Shown here one piece after another: positions 1-6,344 of a stretch of DNA of 64,000 nucleotides. The notes beneath the pieces were generated by a model. That model was not told the DNA's origin. It did not search any database and saw only the letters and a program-made list of their open reading frames with translations. Made by a program: the position numbers and the translations under genes. Position 1 is the stretch's first letter; every line of letters begins with the position of its first letter. Source of the stretch: Flavobacterium frigidarium DSM 17623. Lineage in GTDB: Bacteria > Bacteroidota > Bacteroidia > Flavobacteriales > Flavobacteriaceae. Location of the stretch: the NCBI RefSeq assembly GCF_000425505.1, contig NZ_AUDO01000009.1, forward strand, positions 1-64,000, read 5' to 3'.

Positions 1-298
1 ATTTTAGAATAATTCCCGCATCAGGAATGTCAAATTTCAAACAACAATCCACAAATGACAAGGATTCTTTTTGAATTGATTGCAAAACTTTAAATTTAAA
101 ATCGACACTATAACTACGGTTATTCCTAGGTGTTAATCCATCTTTACCATAATGATTATATAGCCTAACCCACTTTTTAACACTCGAAGGATGAACTTTC
201 TTTTTATTAGCTACAGACACACAGCAATTGTGCTGTTTGATAACTAATTCCACACATTCAAGTTTAAATGTGTAATCATACTTGACTTTTCTTTCCAT
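1..298 (-). CDS. IS3-family transposase OrfA-like protein, partial (runs off left edge)
   Basis: Reading inwards from an ATG at 298-296 on the minus strand, an open frame of 99 codons continues past the window edge. It starts MERKVKYDYTFKLECVELV and contains two helix-turn-helix-like segments (ANKKKVHPSSVKKWVRLY, then a YGKDGLTPRNNRSYS linker), typical of the N-terminal DNA-binding subunit (OrfA) of IS3/IS150-group transposases. The Trp-Val after the recognition helix and the DGLTPR linker are family hallmarks. The catalytic DDE part (OrfB) would lie outside the window, so completeness cannot be judged. The adjacent inverted repeat at 299-341 fits the left end of the same element. Confidence 0.85.
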   Translation of the reverse strand, partial: MERKVKYDYTFKLECVELVIKQHNCCVSVANKKKVHPSSVKKWVRLYNHYGKDGLTPRNNRSYSVDFKFKVLQSIQKESLSFVDCCLKFDIPDAGIILK

Positions 299-341
299 AA
301 AAATGCCCCCAAATAGTGTCTAACTTTTTGGGGGCAATGCA
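299..341 (-). mobile_element. Terminal inverted repeat region of the IS3-family element
   Basis: Read on the minus strand the segment begins TGCATTGCCCCCAAAAAGTT and continues AGACACTATTTGGGGGCA. This resembles ends of IS150-type elements (TG...TGCCCC..AAAAGTTAGACA). The block from 304 to 336 is itself an imperfect palindrome (TGCCCCCAAA at one side, TTTGGGGGCA at the other) and could form a hairpin protecting the transposase from outside transcription. The likely element boundary is near 341, directly abutting the terminator stem. The other end and the target duplication are outside the window. Confidence 0.65.
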
Positions 342-377: not shown

Positions 378-1052
378 TTACGAAAACAAATCTTGCTTCA
401 CTTTATCATAGTAACTGTCACTCACAGGAATAATTAGGTCTGACAGTAGTAAGTCTCTTCCCTTTAAACCAGTTACTTTATTTTTATTTACTATGTAAGA
501 ACGATGCACACGTATAAATTGATTTGGGTCTAGCGTTTTCTCTAATGATTTGAGCGTTTGATAACTCATTATCTTTCTTCCATTGCTGTAGAAGTTGACA
601 TATTCACTGTCGCTTTCAATATGAGTAATATCAGCCAACTTTAATTTAAAGAAATCATATCCCGATTTAATAGTTAGTGTATCACTGGCTATTAATTGTG
701 GTTGTTCACTTTTAATTTTTTGAACAGCTTGTAAAAAGCGCTGAAAAGCAATTGGTTTTAATAAATAATCAATGGCATTGAGTTCAAATCCCTCTAATGC
801 ATATTCAGAGTAAGCAGTAGTAAAAATAATCTTAGTCGAAGCTGGAATTAGCTTAGCAAAGTCTGTTCCTTTAATTTCAGGCATTTGAATATCTAAAAAA
901 ACAATTTGGATTGCTCCTTTTTTAAGAATAGTCATAGCATCTAGCGGATTCTCAAACGAACCTACCAATTCCAAAAAAAATACCTTGCTAACATAATTTT
1001 TTAAAAGTTCCCTAGCGAGTTCTTCATCATCAATTATAACACATTTATACAT
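378..1052 (-). CDS. LytTR-family response regulator
   Basis: A 224-residue cytoplasmic response regulator. The receiver domain (about 1-118) has the acidic pair D8/D9, phosphoacceptor D54 (VFLDIQMPE) and the conserved Lys in YLLKPIAF. The C-terminal LytTR DNA-binding domain (about 122-224) has the typical IESDSEYVNFYSNG and FIRVHRSYIVNK segments. The family binds pairs of roughly 9-10-bp direct repeats on one DNA face. It overlaps the upstream histidine kinase gene by 8 bp (translational coupling), so this is its cognate partner. Likely targets are the repeat pairs at 2152-2182 and 3959-3989. The assignment is firm; the stimulus is unknown. Confidence 0.95.
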   Translation of the reverse strand: MYKCVIIDDEELARELLKNYVSKVFFLELVGSFENPLDAMTILKKGAIQIVFLDIQMPEIKGTDFAKLIPASTKIIFTTAYSEYALEGFELNAIDYLLKPIAFQRFLQAVQKIKSEQPQLIASDTLTIKSGYDFFKLKLADITHIESDSEYVNFYSNGRKIMSYQTLKSLEKTLDPNQFIRVHRSYIVNKNKVTGLKGRDLLLSDLIIPVSDSYYDKVKQDLFS

Positions 1053-2061
1053 TCAGCTCCATTTTTAATTCCACATTAAAGGTATTACTATTTTCAGTAA
1101 TCCCTAGCGAATGTGCCTCTGGATATAATAATAAAAGTCTCTTTTTTACATTTGGAATTCCAATTCCTCCTACGCCATCCTTTACTATAGGTCCTTTTTT
1201 AAAGGTATTTTCGATCGAAAATAAAACAGATGTCGAAGTCGAATGAATCCTTATTGCAATAGATGATTCTTCAATGTTTTGAATATTACTATGTTTGAAT
1301 GCATTCTCTACAAAAGGGATAAGCAGCATGGGAGCGATTTGCAATTTTGGATCTTCTATAGTAAAAGAGGTCGTTATGGGGTATTCTTTACTACTCTTCA
1401 ATATGAATAGTTGAATAAAATCTTCTATATATGTTACCTCTTTTTCTATTGCAATCACTGGTTTTTCGCAATCGTACAAAACATAGCGCAGCATATCCGA
1501 TAGATACAAAATACTCTGCTGTGCCTTAGCTGAATCAATCATCGAAAGCGAATAGATATTATTTAAAGAGTTAAATAAAAAATGCGGATTGATCTGTGAT
1601 TTTAAAAATTTAAGTTCGCTTTCTATCATTTCAGATTTACTAATTATTAAAGCCTCCTCCTTTTTTTGAGCGAAGGCAAATGTTTCTAAAAAAGTAGCAA
1701 ATACATAAGAAACAGTAATTAAAAGCAAATTAATAAATATAGGGCTAGGAAGCATTTTATCCCCTCTTCCAGGTGGTGGTGGCATGCCCATTCCCCCGTG
1801 AGGCCTTATCATAATCGAAGAAATGAAAGCAGCAATAAATACTAAAACTACTGAATACAGTACAAATTGAAGATGCTTTTTATTGAAAAGAAGTTTGGGT
1901 GCCAAAACATATATTAAAACCACAATAAGAATTGCTTGACAGCTATAAGCCAGTACATTCTCTATTAAAAATTGGGTGATGTCTTTTTGGTTTAAACCAA
2001 TAATAATCAAAACTAACAACCATAATATAAGCTGAAAGATAACGCGAGTAATTTTATTCAT
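1045..2061 (-). CDS. LytS-type sensor histidine kinase (His_kinase, PF06580 class)
   Basis: A 338-residue membrane kinase with four predicted transmembrane helices (about 8-23, 38-55, 64-84, 107-128) followed by the His_kinase domain. The phosphoacceptor is H160 in INPHFLFNSLNNIYSL, and the N-box follows later as LLIPFVENAFKHS, then the GIGIPNVKKRL glycine box. There is no separate extracellular sensor domain. The only sizeable periplasmic loop, between helices 3 and 4, is the unusual HGGMGMPPPPGRGDKM, so the sensor is probably intramembrane or this loop. It is translated before and coupled to the LytTR regulator, and is divergent from the cotH-like gene. Confidence 0.93.
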   Translation of the reverse strand: MNKITRVIFQLILWLLVLIIIGLNQKDITQFLIENVLAYSCQAILIVVLIYVLAPKLLFNKKHLQFVLYSVVLVFIAAFISSIMIRPHGGMGMPPPPGRGDKMLPSPIFINLLLITVSYVFATFLETFAFAQKKEEALIISKSEMIESELKFLKSQINPHFLFNSLNNIYSLSMIDSAKAQQSILYLSDMLRYVLYDCEKPVIAIEKEVTYIEDFIQLFILKSSKEYPITTSFTIEDPKLQIAPMLLIPFVENAFKHSNIQNIEESSIAIRIHSTSTSVLFSIENTFKKGPIVKDGVGGIGIPNVKKRLLLLYPEAHSLGITENSNTFNVELKMELNV

Positions 2062-2151
2062 AGTACAAATAAATAAAATTAAAATTAATCAAATCTTGAA
2101 AACGCCACTTTTTACCTCTTTAAAAGGATTGTTTACAGAATGGCAAGTATG

Positions 2152-2218
2152 ACTCACAGATTACTTTCATGCATTCACTGAAAAAAAATAATACACTTTT
2201 ATAATTTGTTCAAATTTG
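2152..2218 (+). promoter_or_regulatory. Predicted LytTR-controlled promoter of the cotH-like gene
   Basis: An imperfect repeat pair ACTCACAGAT (2152-2161) and ATTCACTGAA (2173-2182) is offset by 21 bp. Exactly 28 bp after the second copy comes CAAATTTG (2211-2218), a near match to the TAnnTTTG -7 box, 28 bp before the ATG at 2247. The EF-hand operon promoter has the same arrangement with the same distances. Repeat pairs offset by two helical turns are the typical LytTR-regulator target, and such a regulator is encoded next door. Binding itself is inferred. Confidence 0.65.
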
Positions 2219-2246
2219 CAAGCAACAGTAAAATTAAAATACAATT

Positions 2247-3641
2247 ATGAAAAAGTTAAATATTCTGATTTTAGCAACGCTTCAACTGTTTTTAATCACT
2301 TCTTGCTCAAAAGAGGAGTCTAGCATTGATGAGGTCGAAGAAGTAGAAGTTGATGATTCCGTTTTTGAAATTCCTGATTGGACCACAGAAACCCACAGTA
2401 AAAAAGCAGACCCAAACTTTGAAGAAGTATTTGCAGACAATACTGTAAAAAGATTAGATATTGTAATAACTAGTACACGCTGGAAAAAAATGATTGCCGA
2501 TATGACTGCTACATATGGTACTTTTGGTACAAGTTCAGGAGGTCCTGGTCTAACATCATCAGACGAAGATCCTTTAATGGTTCCTGCCGAGGTATTCTAT
2601 AAGGGAAAAGAATGGTACCGTGTGGGTGTTCGTTTCAAAGGGAATTCCAGCTTGCAGTCTACCTGGTCTAGCGGAAACTTGAAATTATCTTTTAAATTAG
2701 ATTTTGACGAATACGAAGATACCTATCCTCAAATAGATAATCAGCGTTTTTACGGTTTTAAAAAATTAAGCTTAAAAAACAACTATAATGATAAATCGAT
2801 GTTACGTGAAAAAGTAGCAACCGATATTTTTAGAGCTTCAGGTTTAGTAAGTTCACATGCTGCTATTTATGAGGTTTATGTAGATCATGGCGACGGACCA
2901 ACTTATTTTGGAGTGTATACCTTAGTTGAAGAGGTAGATGATACGTTGATAGATGAATTTTCAAATAATGACGGTAATTTATACAAACCAGACGGTGCTG
3001 GAGCTAGTTTTGCTGACGGAAGTTTTACAAAGGATGTATTTGTTAAGAAAACAAATGAAGACGCTGCAGATTATAGCGATATTCAAAATTTGTTTACGGC
3101 TTTACATGCTAGTAATAGAACAACTGATGCCGCGGCTTGGAGAGCGAATCTAGAATCAGTATTTGACACAGATACATTTTTAAAATATTTAGCTGTCAAT
3201 ACGGTAATTCAAAACTGGGATACGTACGGAAGAATGACACACAATTATTTTTTATATAATAATCCAGACACCAAAAAATTATCGTGGATACCATGGGATA
3301 ATAATGAAGCATTGCAAACAGGGAATCAAGGCGGCTCCTATGCTCTAAATTTCTCAGGCCTAAGCACTACGTCATGGCCATTGATAGGATATTTGTATAA
3401 TGATGCAACCTATAAAGCGAAGTATGATGTATATGTAAAAAGTGTCATTGATAACGCTTTTAATGAAAATACTATGAAAGCTACTTATGCAAGTTATGGA
3501 GCACTTGTAAAACCGTATGCAATAAAAGAGGTTAAAGGGTATACTTTTTTAAATAGCACTGCTGAATTTCAAACAGCAATAGATGCGTTAAGCACTCATG
3601 TTACTGCTCGTACTAATGCTGTGAACAGTTATTTAAAATAA
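2247..3641 (+). CDS. CotH-like (spore-coat kinase fold) secreted lipoprotein
   Basis: 464 residues beginning with a lipoprotein signal (LQLFLITSC, lipid-modified Cys 20), so the protein is exported and membrane anchored. The body matches the CotH family: VGVRFKGNSSLQS, a K-rich strand then NNYNDKSMLREKVATDIF, GVYTLVEEVDD, GNLYKPDG, and the metal-binding-like WDTYGRMTHNYFLY followed by WIPWDNNEAL. CotH proteins of spore formers are atypical protein kinases. In Bacteroidota the family is common on the cell surface and its substrates are unknown. It is monocistronic, with a terminator at 3758-3789, and is divergent from the two-component genes. Kinase activity is not provable from sequence. Confidence 0.9.
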   Translation: MKKLNILILATLQLFLITSCSKEESSIDEVEEVEVDDSVFEIPDWTTETHSKKADPNFEEVFADNTVKRLDIVITSTRWKKMIADMTATYGTFGTSSGGPGLTSSDEDPLMVPAEVFYKGKEWYRVGVRFKGNSSLQSTWSSGNLKLSFKLDFDEYEDTYPQIDNQRFYGFKKLSLKNNYNDKSMLREKVATDIFRASGLVSSHAAIYEVYVDHGDGPTYFGVYTLVEEVDDTLIDEFSNNDGNLYKPDGAGASFADGSFTKDVFVKKTNEDAADYSDIQNLFTALHASNRTTDAAAWRANLESVFDTDTFLKYLAVNTVIQNWDTYGRMTHNYFLYNNPDTKKLSWIPWDNNEALQTGNQGGSYALNFSGLSTTSWPLIGYLYNDATYKAKYDVYVKSVIDNAFNENTMKATYASYGALVKPYAIKEVKGYTFLNSTAEFQTAIDALSTHVTARTNAVNSYLK

Positions 3642-3757
3642 AAAAAGAACGTGTGAACTAATTTCTGTACCACTTACGGATAAAGGATTGTTTGCGTTTT
3701 AAAAATACTTTTTTTGTTAGTTGTTGTAATTCACGTTGCAATTGTATTAATAAAACT

Positions 3758-3789
3758 AAAGGCGAAGGATATCCAACTTCGCCTTTTTT
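3758..3789 (+). terminator. Rho-independent terminator of the cotH-like gene
   Basis: Stem AAAGGCGAAG / CTTCGCCTTT with a 9-nt loop followed by six or more T residues, about 115 bp after the cotH stop codon. Confidence 0.8.
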
Positions 3790-3955
3790 ATTTTATAACT
3801 ACCTTAATTTTTAAATGAGATTTTAATTGAACAGTGCTCATTTTAGTGTCAACTAAAACAAAAACATCATTATTATAAAACAACAATCAAGCAATTTATA
3901 AATCCTTAAAACACTAAAACAGTTATTTGTAACAACGCATTATTTGATAGAATAT

Positions 3956-4025
3956 ACTATTCACTGAATAGTATTCCTCATTCGCTGAATACCCAAAAAT
4001 CCTTTCAATTATTAGTGCAAATTTG
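3956..4025 (+). promoter_or_regulatory. Predicted LytTR-controlled promoter of the EF-hand/YHYH/MORN/SCO operon
   Basis: Two near-identical boxes ATTCACTGAA (3959-3968) and ATTCGCTGAA (3980-3989) are offset by 21 bp. The first lies inside the perfect palindrome ACTATTCA-C-TGAATAGT (3956-3972). CAAATTTG (4018-4025) begins 28 bp after the second box and 39 bp before the ATG at 4057. Box sequence, box offset and box-to-CAAATTTG distance equal those in front of the cotH-like gene, which is strong sequence evidence for common control. Confidence 0.7.
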
Positions 4026-4056
4026 TACTCAATAACAATCACTAATTCAAAATATC

Positions 4057-4335
4057 ATGAAAAACAAAATAATGTACAGCGCCATTGCACTTATAGCAAC
4101 AGTAACTATTGGATATGCTCAACCACCACAAGGTGAAGAAGGAAAAAAACCACCTACTACAGAAGAGCTAATGAAACAAATGGATGCTGATAAAGATGGT
4201 AAACTTTCTAAGAAAGAAGTTAAAGGCCCTTTGAAAGATGATTTTACCAAAATAGATTTAGACAAAGATGGCTACATAACTGCTGAAGAATTGAAAAAAG
4301 CACCTAAGCCAGAAAGAAGAAAAGAGAGAAAGTAA
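4057..4335 (+). CDS. Small exported EF-hand calcium-binding protein
   Basis: 92 residues: a cleavable signal peptide (cleavage near Y20-A21-Q22), a Pro/Gly/Glu-rich linker, then two canonical 12-residue EF-hand loops, D43-x-D45-x-D47-G...E54 and D67-x-D69-x-D71-G...E78, and a basic tail (KPERRKERK). Both loops keep all Ca2+ ligands, so calcium binding is likely; the location is periplasm or outer surface. It is the first gene of a four-gene operon, with the next start codon 3 nt after its stop. Such proteins may buffer or sense Ca2+; the partner is unknown. The promoter carries the repeat pair at 3956-4025. Confidence 0.88.
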   Translation: MKNKIMYSAIALIATVTIGYAQPPQGEEGKKPPTTEELMKQMDADKDGKLSKKEVKGPLKDDFTKIDLDKDGYITAEELKKAPKPERRKERK

Positions 4336-4338
4336 AAA

Positions 4339-5103
4339 ATGAAAAATACAAACAATCAACATTGGGCTATCCTGCTTTTGTCCTTTGCAAGTTTAACTTC
4401 TTGCAGCAGTTCATCATCTCAGGATGACACTACAGAGGAATCAGGTAGTGCTACAGTTCCTACAGTGTTCAGTTCTAGCTACAAATCTGCAGTTACTTTA
4501 TCTTCTGACGGAACATCGGTAACTATGAAATCAAACGGAACTCCGGATCACGTTACTCCATACTGGGGAGAAGGGAATACTTTGTATGAAGCACAAACCA
4601 CAGGTCAAACGGTAAATCCAGGAACGTTACAAGCCCAAGTTTTTGTAATGACGATACCTTTGAATCCCATAGCTGCAACTACAAAGGAGGAAACTTCCTT
4701 AGGACCTATAGGTATGGCATTAAATGGTGTTGCTATTTACAATGATAGAGAAGGTGGAAATGTACCTGTAGACGCAGGAACATTGACCTCATTTGATAGA
4801 GCTGGAGCACATAGTGGTCCTGGCGGATTATATCATTATCATTTTAATGGTGATTTTACATCAGATGATGATGCCAAGTTGATCGGGTGGTTACGAGACG
4901 GTTTTCCTATCTATGGTCGTCAAGACACAAACGGAACCTATCCTTCAGACCTCGACACTAATGGTGGCCATATAGGTGCCACAGCAGAATATCCTGATGG
5001 AATTTATCATTATCATTGCTCAAATGTTAATTATATGAATTCAGGTTTTTACGTATTAAAAGCAGGAAGTTATTATGGTACGAAAGGAACATTTACTTTT
5101 TAA
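4339..5103 (+). CDS. YHYH-domain lipoprotein
   Basis: 254 residues. The lipoprotein signal ends at C22 (SLTSC), followed by a Ser/acidic tether. The YHYH domain (about 60-250) carries two copies of the name-giving motif, YHYH at 165-168 (GGLYHYHFNG) and at 223-226 (GIYHYHCSN), plus a DGFPIYG segment. The paired His residues suggest metal binding, but the family has no established biochemical role. It follows the EF-hand gene after 3 nt and overlaps the next gene by 29 bp, so the genes are almost certainly co-transcribed. Family assignment is secure; function is inferred only loosely. Confidence 0.88.
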   Translation: MKNTNNQHWAILLLSFASLTSCSSSSSQDDTTEESGSATVPTVFSSSYKSAVTLSSDGTSVTMKSNGTPDHVTPYWGEGNTLYEAQTTGQTVNPGTLQAQVFVMTIPLNPIAATTKEETSLGPIGMALNGVAIYNDREGGNVPVDAGTLTSFDRAGAHSGPGGLYHYHFNGDFTSDDDAKLIGWLRDGFPIYGRQDTNGTYPSDLDTNGGHIGATAEYPDGIYHYHCSNVNYMNSGFYVLKAGSYYGTKGTFTF

Positions 5104-5725
5104 AATTATTGGCATAGTACTTATTACACTTTGTTCAGCGTGTTTTAATAGATCAGTAAAAGAGGAGGTCATAAAACCGTCCTCTTTTGTTGTTGTTAAA
5201 ACTAAAAGCACATTAGATACTATTACATTAGAAAACAAAAAATTGCGCCTTGACAACGGAGTTTATTATCTACATAATGTTGCCTATACAGGTTATATTA
5301 AGGAGATGCACAATGCTACTCAAATAAAAAATGTTTTTCTTTTTCGAAAAGGCAAGCAAGATGGCATCTCAAAAAGCTATTACAACAGTGGGCAGTTAAT
5401 GGATAGTCGAAATTACAAGAACGGTAAAGCATATGGAAGGCATTACGGATTTTGGGAAAACGGAAATCAAAAATACGACTTCATTTATTTCAACGATAAA
5501 CGTGAAGGACTGCAAAAACAATGGTATGAATCTGGCAGTAGGTATGCTTATTTGAATTTTAAAAACGATGCAGAAGATGGCATGCAAAAAGCTTGGCGCC
5601 AAAATGGAAAACCATACATTAATTATCAAGCAAAAGAGGGTCACCGTTACGGTTTACAAAAATCTAATTTGTGCTACACCCTACTAGACGGAAAATTAAA
5701 ATTACCTACAAATGAAAGTAAATAA
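5075..5725 (+). CDS. MORN-repeat (YwqK-like) lipoprotein
   Basis: 216 residues. The N-terminus is a lipoprotein signal (GIVLITLCSAC), which fixes the start at 5075 even though it lies inside the 3' end of the YHYH gene (29-bp overlap in another frame). The body has tandem MORN_2-type repeats of about 22 residues (GKQDGISKSYYNSGQLMDS, GKAYGRHYGFWENGNQ, DKREGLQKQWYESGS, DAEDGMQKAWRQNGKPY). Databases often call this family an antitoxin (YwqK), but no toxin gene is nearby and the protein is exported, so that label is doubtful. The next gene starts 14 bp before its stop. Confidence 0.85.
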   Translation: MVRKEHLLFKIIGIVLITLCSACFNRSVKEEVIKPSSFVVVKTKSTLDTITLENKKLRLDNGVYYLHNVAYTGYIKEMHNATQIKNVFLFRKGKQDGISKSYYNSGQLMDSRNYKNGKAYGRHYGFWENGNQKYDFIYFNDKREGLQKQWYESGSRYAYLNFKNDAEDGMQKAWRQNGKPYINYQAKEGHRYGLQKSNLCYTLLDGKLKLPTNESK

Positions 5726-6344
5726 ACTGATTCTACTAATATTCGCCGCTGTATTATTCTCTTGCCAGAATAAAGAGCAGCTGAGAAAATTGCCTTACTA
5801 CAACACTTCAACTTTTACTCCAGTTTGGGAATTGCCTGAGGATGGCTCTTTTCATTCGATTAGAGATTTTAAATTAATTGATCAACAAGGGAAAGCCTTT
5901 ACCGCTGATAGTCTAAAAGGCAAAATATGTGTAGTTGATTTTTTCTTTACCTCTTGTCCTGGAATTTGCCCAAAAATGGCTAAAAACATGACTACTTTGC
6001 AAAACGACTTTCTTAATGATGATGCCGTATTATTAATTTCTCATTCTGTGACTCCAGAACAAGATAGTGTAGCTACACTAGTACAATATGCTAAAAAAAA
6101 TAATGTAAGTTATAATAAATGGAAACTGCTCACCGGTGAAAAGGAAGAAATTTACAATTTGGGAAGAAAATTTTATTTTGTCGAAGAAGACTTAGGAGAA
6201 AACAAAGATGCTTCCATCTTCTTGCATACCGAAAATTTTGTCTTAATAGATAAAAACAAGATTATTAGAGGAATCTATAATAGCTTAGACCCAACGAGCA
6301 TGCTATCATTAAAAGAAGATATCAAGGTACTCGAGCAAGAATAA
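5712..6344 (+). CDS. SCO1/SenC family lipoprotein (thioredoxin-like, copper chaperone type)
   Basis: 210 residues with a lipoprotein signal (VLFSC, Cys 18) and a thioredoxin-fold domain bearing the SCO copper/redox motif C82-PGI-C86 (FTSCPGICPKM) and the distal H172 (LHTENF). SCO proteins deliver copper to, or reduce cysteines of, the CuA site of cytochrome c oxidase in the periplasm. All three copper ligands are present. It is the last gene of the EF-hand operon, overlaps the MORN gene by 14 bp, and is followed by a strong bidirectional terminator. The operon context (EF-hand, YHYH) hints at a metal-related envelope role other than standard oxidase assembly. Confidence 0.92.
   Translation: MKVNKLILLIFAAVLFSCQNKEQLRKLPYYNTSTFTPVWELPEDGSFHSIRDFKLIDQQGKAFTADSLKGKICVVDFFFTSCPGICPKMAKNMTTLQNDFLNDDAVLLISHSVTPEQDSVATLVQYAKKNNVSYNKWKLLTGEKEEIYNLGRKFYFVEEDLGENKDASIFLHTENFVLIDKNKIIRGIYNSLDPTSMLSLKEDIKVLEQE

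Follow-up and report, generated by a model that had tools for sequence, protein, structure and literature searches.

Paired boxes before cotH and an EF-hand operon as candidate operators of a neighbouring LytS/LytTR system in Flavobacteriaceae

The window, by which is meant the whole 64-kb stretch of DNA analysed, carries on one strand the genes for a LytTR response regulator and a LytS/YpdA-type membrane histidine kinase, and on the other cotH followed by an operon whose first gene encodes a small EF-hand protein (Table 1). It begins at a contig end within an apparent transposase-type helix-turn-helix ORF (positions 1-300, minus strand, by eye). Domain matches confirm the regulator and kinase that a first-pass annotation had placed beside cotH, both Pfam domains of the regulator being above cut-off. 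Residues D54 and K99 of the regulator, and H160 of the kinase within NPHFLFNSLNNI, are invariant in seven aligned orthologs. The best NCBIfam match of the regulator is BtsR (YehT; equivalog NF008677), yet it is not a member, scoring 132 bits against a curated cut-off of 246. The membrane segments of the kinase were judged by eye, as was the proline-rich loop between them in the 32 sequences listed.

Table 1. Genes and candidate regulatory elements of the locus, in window coordinates
Feature	Position	Strand	Basis
LytTR response regulator (receiver + LytTR DNA-binding domain)	378..1052	-	Pfam Response_reg 5.2e-20, LytTR 2.8e-20
LytS/YpdA-type membrane histidine kinase	1045..2061	-	Pfam His_kinase (PF06580) 1.2e-21
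TTTATTTG, predicted -7 box of kinase gene	2066..2073	-	4 nt before ATG
Distal box, cotH promoter, degenerate ACTCACAGAT	2152..2161	+	sequence
Proximal box, cotH promoter, ATTCACTGAA	2173..2182	+	exact match; pair before cotH in 8/11 kinase-positive genomes
CAAATTTG, predicted sigma-A -7 box of cotH	2211..2218	+	TAnnTTTG class, exactly 28 bp past proximal box
cotH, CotH-family protein, putative lipoprotein (by eye)	2247..3641	+	Pfam CotH 9.3e-68
Distal box, EF-hand operon promoter, ATTCACTGAA	3959..3968	+	exact match
Proximal box, EF-hand operon promoter, ATTCGCTGAA	3980..3989	+	exact match
CAAATTTG, predicted sigma-A -7 box of EF-hand operon	4018..4025	+	TAnnTTTG class; 28-bp gap
Small EF-hand protein, exported (by eye)	4057..4335	+	Pfam EF-hand_5 2.3e-13, two stretches
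YHYH-domain protein, putative lipoprotein (by eye)	4339..5103	+	Pfam YHYH 4.6e-21
MORN-variant-like protein, putative lipoprotein (by eye)	5075..5725	+	weak Pfam MORN_2 5.1e-06
SCO1/SenC-family protein, putative lipoprotein (by eye)	5712..6344	+	Pfam SCO1-SenC 1.5e-28

The products of cotH and the operon look exported, judging by eye from their signal or lipoprotein N-termini. The MORN_2 match is below its cut-off (26.5 versus 29.6 bits) and the place of the MORN-like gene in the gene order is conserved. The SCO protein keeps a CPGIC motif in its translation, and a comparison of nine aligned copies of the YHYH protein shows its two YHYH motifs in every one. A structure model of the YHYH protein had a mean pLDDT of 36 and was not used, and the search for a solved structural relative of it gave none with an E-value better than 0.03. 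That the function is metal sensing or metal handling is a guess.

The first-pass annotation had reported, upstream of both cotH and the EF-hand gene, a pair of boxes of the form ATTCRCTGAA followed by CAAATTTG. Boxes and CAAATTTG copies lie where it had placed them, and the offset of 21 bp from box to box and the gap of 28 bp from box to CAAATTTG are exact at both promoters. The distal cotH box is as degenerate as it had described (7/10); the copy at 3959, rightly positioned, had been rated 9/10 and in fact matches ATTCRCTGAA in full, the lower figure holding against its neighbour box. Exact copies of ATTCRCTGAA occur in the window at 2173, 3959 and 3980 only, and single boxes with up to two mismatches are not enriched there (148 matches versus 164 expected). 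The full arrangement, box-N11-box-N28-YANNTTTG with up to three mismatches, has two matches in the 3.63-Mb genome, exactly these promoters, and its reversed control has none in the same genome; a looser pattern for the repeat alone finds one more, on contig C10, with two mismatches and without a -7 box at gap 28. Of the box first proposed the repeat stands, while its core is now shortened to TTCACTGAA(AA) and CAAATTTG is reassigned to the promoter. The operator core becomes TTCACTGAA-N12-TTCACTGAA, placed 28 bp ahead of a Bacteroidota sigma-A-type box of the TAnnTTTG class, which is CAAATTTG in this window and commonly CATCTTTG.

The first-pass annotation had proposed looking for the repeat in related genomes and seeing whether it accompanies the kinase/regulator pair; this search, carried out in the genus and the family, came out as it had expected. 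In the genus set of 299 genomes, own genome included, clear kinase orthologs (62-72% identity, at least 428 bits, the next matches having 164) are present in seven, again counting its own, and the other 292 are kinase-negative. The EF-hand, YHYH, MORN and SCO genes adjoin the kinase in all six relatives, and cotH lies between the kinase and the EF-hand genes in the genome of the window, in one of the six and in the later-found G798. All seven loci have TTCACTGAA-N12-TTCACTGAA, with 0-4 mismatches in 18, before the EF-hand gene and, where present, cotH, and the box 28 bp past the repeat is CAAATTTG, CAACTTTG, CATCTTTG, GAAATTTG or GATATTTG. The repeat with TTTG is found at one mismatch or less in six of the seven kinase-positive genomes (in the seventh at two) versus one of the 292 others, G105, which has an exact repeat beside unrelated genes. 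At two mismatches 25 of the 292 match, which is about the level of the reversed control (24 matches, own count). Relatives of the YHYH protein with more than 55% identity are in all seven kinase-positive genomes and in none of the 292 others, 12 of which have weaker relatives (40-46% identity). In G798, a close relative whose locus L312 stands outside the counts of 33 loci and 51 promoters below, the best cotH box pair has five mismatches. At locus L034 of G047 two versions of the EF-hand/YHYH/MORN/SCO operon follow each other in tandem; of the three box pairs there, one stands close to the kinase and has no obvious -7 box.

A profile search of 397 genomes of the family gave clear kinase orthologs in 25, from 19 genera (at least 355 bits, the next match, L203, having 252; the region of the latter was fetched and excluded from the ortholog counts). 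Dokdonia pacifica and Wenyingzhuangia aestuarii were added from among the matches listed in a pattern scan of named genomes, and L070 and L072 were treated as duplicates of contigs of G047 and G402, so that the comparison covers 33 loci: the window, six from the genus, 24 from the family and the two named. An EF-hand, YHYH or cotH match lies within about 3 kb, on the far side of the kinase, in 31 of them, the exceptions being L191 and L071. The first-pass annotation had taken a lack of conservation before orthologous genes as what would speak against its proposal; over the 300 bp that precede the kinase gene, 18, 26 and 32 of the 33 loci have a box pair at offset 21 with up to two, three and four mismatches, counted over 18 positions, L188 being the sole locus without one. 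Offset 42 is next best with 4, 8 and 14 loci, its excess being due to triple boxes, and every other offset from 10 to 45 has at most 1, 3 and 7. The controls at up to four mismatches gave 83 of 9900 for random windows of the 33 loci and 12 of 3300 for letter shuffles. Among 266 genomes of the order, many of them of the same genus, there is no clear kinase ortholog outside the family; the best matches in other families have 226, 212 and 210 bits, and the regions of two of these three contain no repeat within three mismatches.

The tie to the kinase is also seen at cotH. Its orthologs occur in 37 of the 397 family genomes, and of the 30 loci fetched the repeat stands directly before cotH in eight of the 11 from kinase-positive genomes versus none of the 19 from kinase-negative ones. 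Those eight repeats have 0-3 mismatches and lie 64-70 bp before the ATG, whereas the best that the kinase-negative loci offer have 6-9; in the other three kinase-positive genomes cotH follows an EF-hand gene with its own box pair (2, 4 and 4 mismatches). When kinase-negative genomes were searched de novo for any 21-bp repeat upstream of cotH or of the EF-hand gene ahead of it, one in 19 had such a repeat, which is background level. Of these 19 kinase-negative loci (for example L291, L300 and L303), 15 have an EF-hand gene before cotH, without the repeat, and in a few kinase-negative cotH loci a different common stretch (CACAAGTT...) seems, by eye, to be present upstream.

The target set extends beyond the kinase locus and stays in the same gene families. 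The 22-letter motif TTCACTGAAAA-N10-TTCACTGAAAA, with up to three mismatches, has 50 matches in 25 of the 31 kinase-positive genomes (its reversal has nine), and in the six genomes without it the pairs upstream of the kinase have 3-4 mismatches. By our own sorting 23 of the 50 are at the kinase locus, and seven are elsewhere, before cotH (L261, L265, L269) or EF-hand or YHYH genes (L263, L264, L266, L270), L270 being a whole second operon. Three more precede a gene for a Cthe_2159 protein (L262), a VTC/DUF4956/cotH-like group (L271) and an arylsulfotransferase-like gene (L268), the sites of L271 and L268 being without a convincing -7 box. To the remaining 17 no regulon-type gene is assigned; five of these were inspected and set aside. 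A further target away from the kinase is a YHYH gene (L267) from the genus scan for the repeat with TTTG. Two of the sites, L265 and L269, share a contig with the kinase, at distances of 17 kb and about 93 kb, and the others are on other contigs or far off. Box pairs at L263, L264 and L267 stand before EF-hand or YHYH genes that are followed by genes for DUF6702-like proteins, a possible further family of the regulon, though two of the three matches are below or near the curated cut-off. Pattern-scan matches inspected and set aside were L064, L272 (two pairs before two surface-protein-like genes), L273, L274, L275, L276 and L277.

For the promoter element, 51 promoters were hand-picked from 52 regions, L188 being dropped for want of a pair and L268 and L271 left out. 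In 35 of the 51 the proximal box is followed at exactly 28 bp by the pattern.A..TTTG, and in 27 by YA..TTTG; every other gap looked at is found in 0-3. The two promoters of the window and L267, whose search pattern already held TTTG at this gap, are not independent as to the gap, and apart from them the figure is 32 of 48. The pattern is absent at that gap from 16 of the 51, and from the left-out L268 and L271 too. In the transcription-start map of F. psychrophilum, as given in extracts of PMC9723704, TAnnTTTG is named as the -7 box of sigma-A and lies roughly between -12 and -5; by that rule transcription is predicted to start near 2223 for cotH and near 4030 for the EF-hand operon, with the 9-bp boxes at about -49..-41 and -70..-62. 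CAAATTTG has the A and the TTTG of this box and differs in having C at its first position, and it is best read as a sigma-A -7 box, and so as promoter rather than as a third part of the operator. Where a -33 element would lie the 51 promoters show only weak spacer preferences, as might be expected of an activator-dependent promoter.

According to extracts from two papers, LytTR sites consist of two repeats of 9-11 nt with spacers of 11-13 nt and no common sequence (PMC4847170), and some are 9-12-9 just upstream of the promoter (PMC6193735). The repeats here, being 9-12-9, have the LytTR operator geometry of the former extract. The distance from repeat to -7 box is 28 bp versus the 33-34 bp implied by the promoters described in the latter, where the repeats end about 10-11 bp before the -35/-33 element. 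Of 96 other LytS-type kinases, 18 have near-identical 10-mers at offset 21 in their upstream regions, a few of these being simple repeats, with eight at offset 42 and at most four at other offsets; before the other ORFs of those loci offset-21 repeats number 30 in 601 (5.0%), versus about 1-3% at most other offsets. These repeats differ in sequence (for example at L095, L129 and L137), so that LytS/LytTR systems in Bacteroidota seem to be marked by 21-bp repeats whose sequence varies from case to case, and their occurrence before other LytS-type kinases ties such repeats to LytTR regulators rather than to another factor. The box itself is not shared by paralogous LytS kinases: five of 99 upstream regions have a pair within four mismatches, and these include one simple repeat (L089) and three of a related GTGAAC-type repeat (L095, L105, L110).

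The reading that best accounts for the boxes, their spacings, their tie to kinase-positive genomes and the same-family targets away from the kinase is that both promoters are targets of the adjacent LytS/LytTR system and that it activates a module of exported-looking genes, for which, on sequence evidence, a probability of about 0.86 is given; the paired boxes are very probably the binding sites of the neighbouring regulator. As parts of this explanation we infer the regulator as binder, activation, the signal and autoregulation. On an envelope signal the membrane kinase, through His160, would phosphorylate Asp54 of the regulator, monomers of which would each bind one TTCACTGAA(AA) box. As the offset of 21 bp between the two boxes (three in several loci) amounts to two helical turns, the boxes would lie on one face of the DNA, and their place beside sigma-A promoters with a recognisable -7 and a weak -33 element would let the regulator recruit RNA polymerase. 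The regulon would comprise the exported-looking CotH, EF-hand, YHYH, MORN-like and SCO proteins. The new small regulon predicted by the first-pass annotation is supported, including targets away from the regulator gene; it extends through the family and takes in YHYH, MORN-like and SCO genes besides cotH and EF-hand genes.

Repression of the cotH and EF-hand promoters by the same system, instead of activation, is unlikely: the sign is not fixed by sequence and boxes ending near -41 could hinder the polymerase, but they precede the core promoter, their distance to it is constant and the -33 region is weak, as in the activated LytTR promoters that extracts of PMC4227749 and PMC6193735 describe. 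A lower probability still is given to a different transcription factor, with the near-palindromic TTCA-C-TGAA box holding a dimer and the kinase and regulator being mere neighbours. The 9-mer is indeed nearly its own reverse complement, and several pairs match with 2-3 mismatches on the opposite strand too; against this, the conservation extends on the 3′ side, where positions 10 and 11 are A in 41 and 44 of the 51 promoters for the distal box and in 29 and 30 for the proximal one, the 5′ side being less conserved, and the offset is that of LytTR regulators, box presence tracks the kinase gene, and 21-bp repeats of different sequence stand before other LytS-type kinases too. It is highly improbable that the two promoters are alike through recent copying of one from the other; they are separated by 1.8 kb and agree, by a count made by eye, at 20 of 40 positions of the spacer, yet the same boxes and gaps recur elsewhere in other genomes and genera with other spacers, which refutes copying as the full explanation. 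Chance resemblance, against which the first-pass annotation had invoked the identical arrangement at two places, might be suggested by the single box being no commoner than expected in the window, and is made untenable by the conservation across genomes and by the full pattern occurring in its own genome at these two promoters alone.

Besides BtsR, three known systems come closest to the one proposed here. AgrA of S. aureus answers to a quorum-sensing signal, and its targets are other than those here. In extracts of PMC4227749 its sites are pairs of direct repeats that lie immediately before promoters whose spacers are suboptimal, the promoter-proximal repeats being centred near -60; the pair here is, by prediction, centred near -55. 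The YpdA/YpdB system of E. coli, with its target yhjX, resembles the present one in combining a LytS kinase with a LytTR regulator, and in a direct repeat bound by YpdB monomers and a very small regulon, as far as extracts of PMC4847170 tell; the YpdB repeat, GGCATTTCAT, is unrelated, and the present system has several promoters, its targets belong to other families and its promoters are of the Bacteroidota type. The LytTR Regulatory System (LRS), including the LRS-like operons of Bacteroides, is described in portions of PMC6193735 as having 9-bp repeats with a 12-bp spacer upstream of the promoter and, in Bacteroides, the -7 box TATCTTTG, both being points of likeness. Differences, by the same portions of PMC6193735, are that the LRS regulator pairs with a membrane inhibitor and no kinase and that the repeats of Bacteroides have an 11-11-11 layout, stand 11 bp ahead of the -33 box and differ in sequence. 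The TAACTGA heptamers of Beggiatoaceae, with up to 43 direct copies, mostly near start codons in the excerpt of PMC4679880, were considered and look different.

No published description of the regulon was found among the matches listed in the open-licence literature (titles and abstract starts), and the analysis supports a regulon that is real, conserved, of a known kind and, on the literature searched, undescribed. Transcription-factor sites in Bacteroidota are, in our judgement, poorly mapped, and what is gained is a precise candidate operator (box, offset and distance to the -7 box) with a candidate regulator and targets across at least 19 genera, by which the roles of CotH, YHYH and small EF-hand proteins become testable as one regulated module. 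A broader reading, possible but rather doubtful, is a family-wide envelope response of Flavobacteriaceae in which the LytS-like kinase, with its proline-rich loop, responds to a metal or another signal in the envelope by turning on CotH-family, EF-hand, YHYH and SCO genes nearby and elsewhere, and in some genera those for DUF6702, Cthe_2159 or VTC/DUF4956 proteins. Were it true, bacterial CotH-type proteins outside spore formers would, to our knowledge, have their first dedicated regulator. Judging by the excess of 21-bp repeats upstream of other LytS-type kinases, operators could be proposed by the same method for many LytTR systems.

The kinase gene has a promoter feature of its own. In 27 of 31 orthologs its ATG is preceded, at exactly 4 nt, by a T(A/T)nnTTTG box, and on this arrangement the kinase mRNA is predicted to be leaderless, with transcription in the window starting at the ATG itself (2061). 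Boxes with up to two mismatches are found at +71, +92 and +113 from the kinase start codon in eight loci, and many other loci have some of them.
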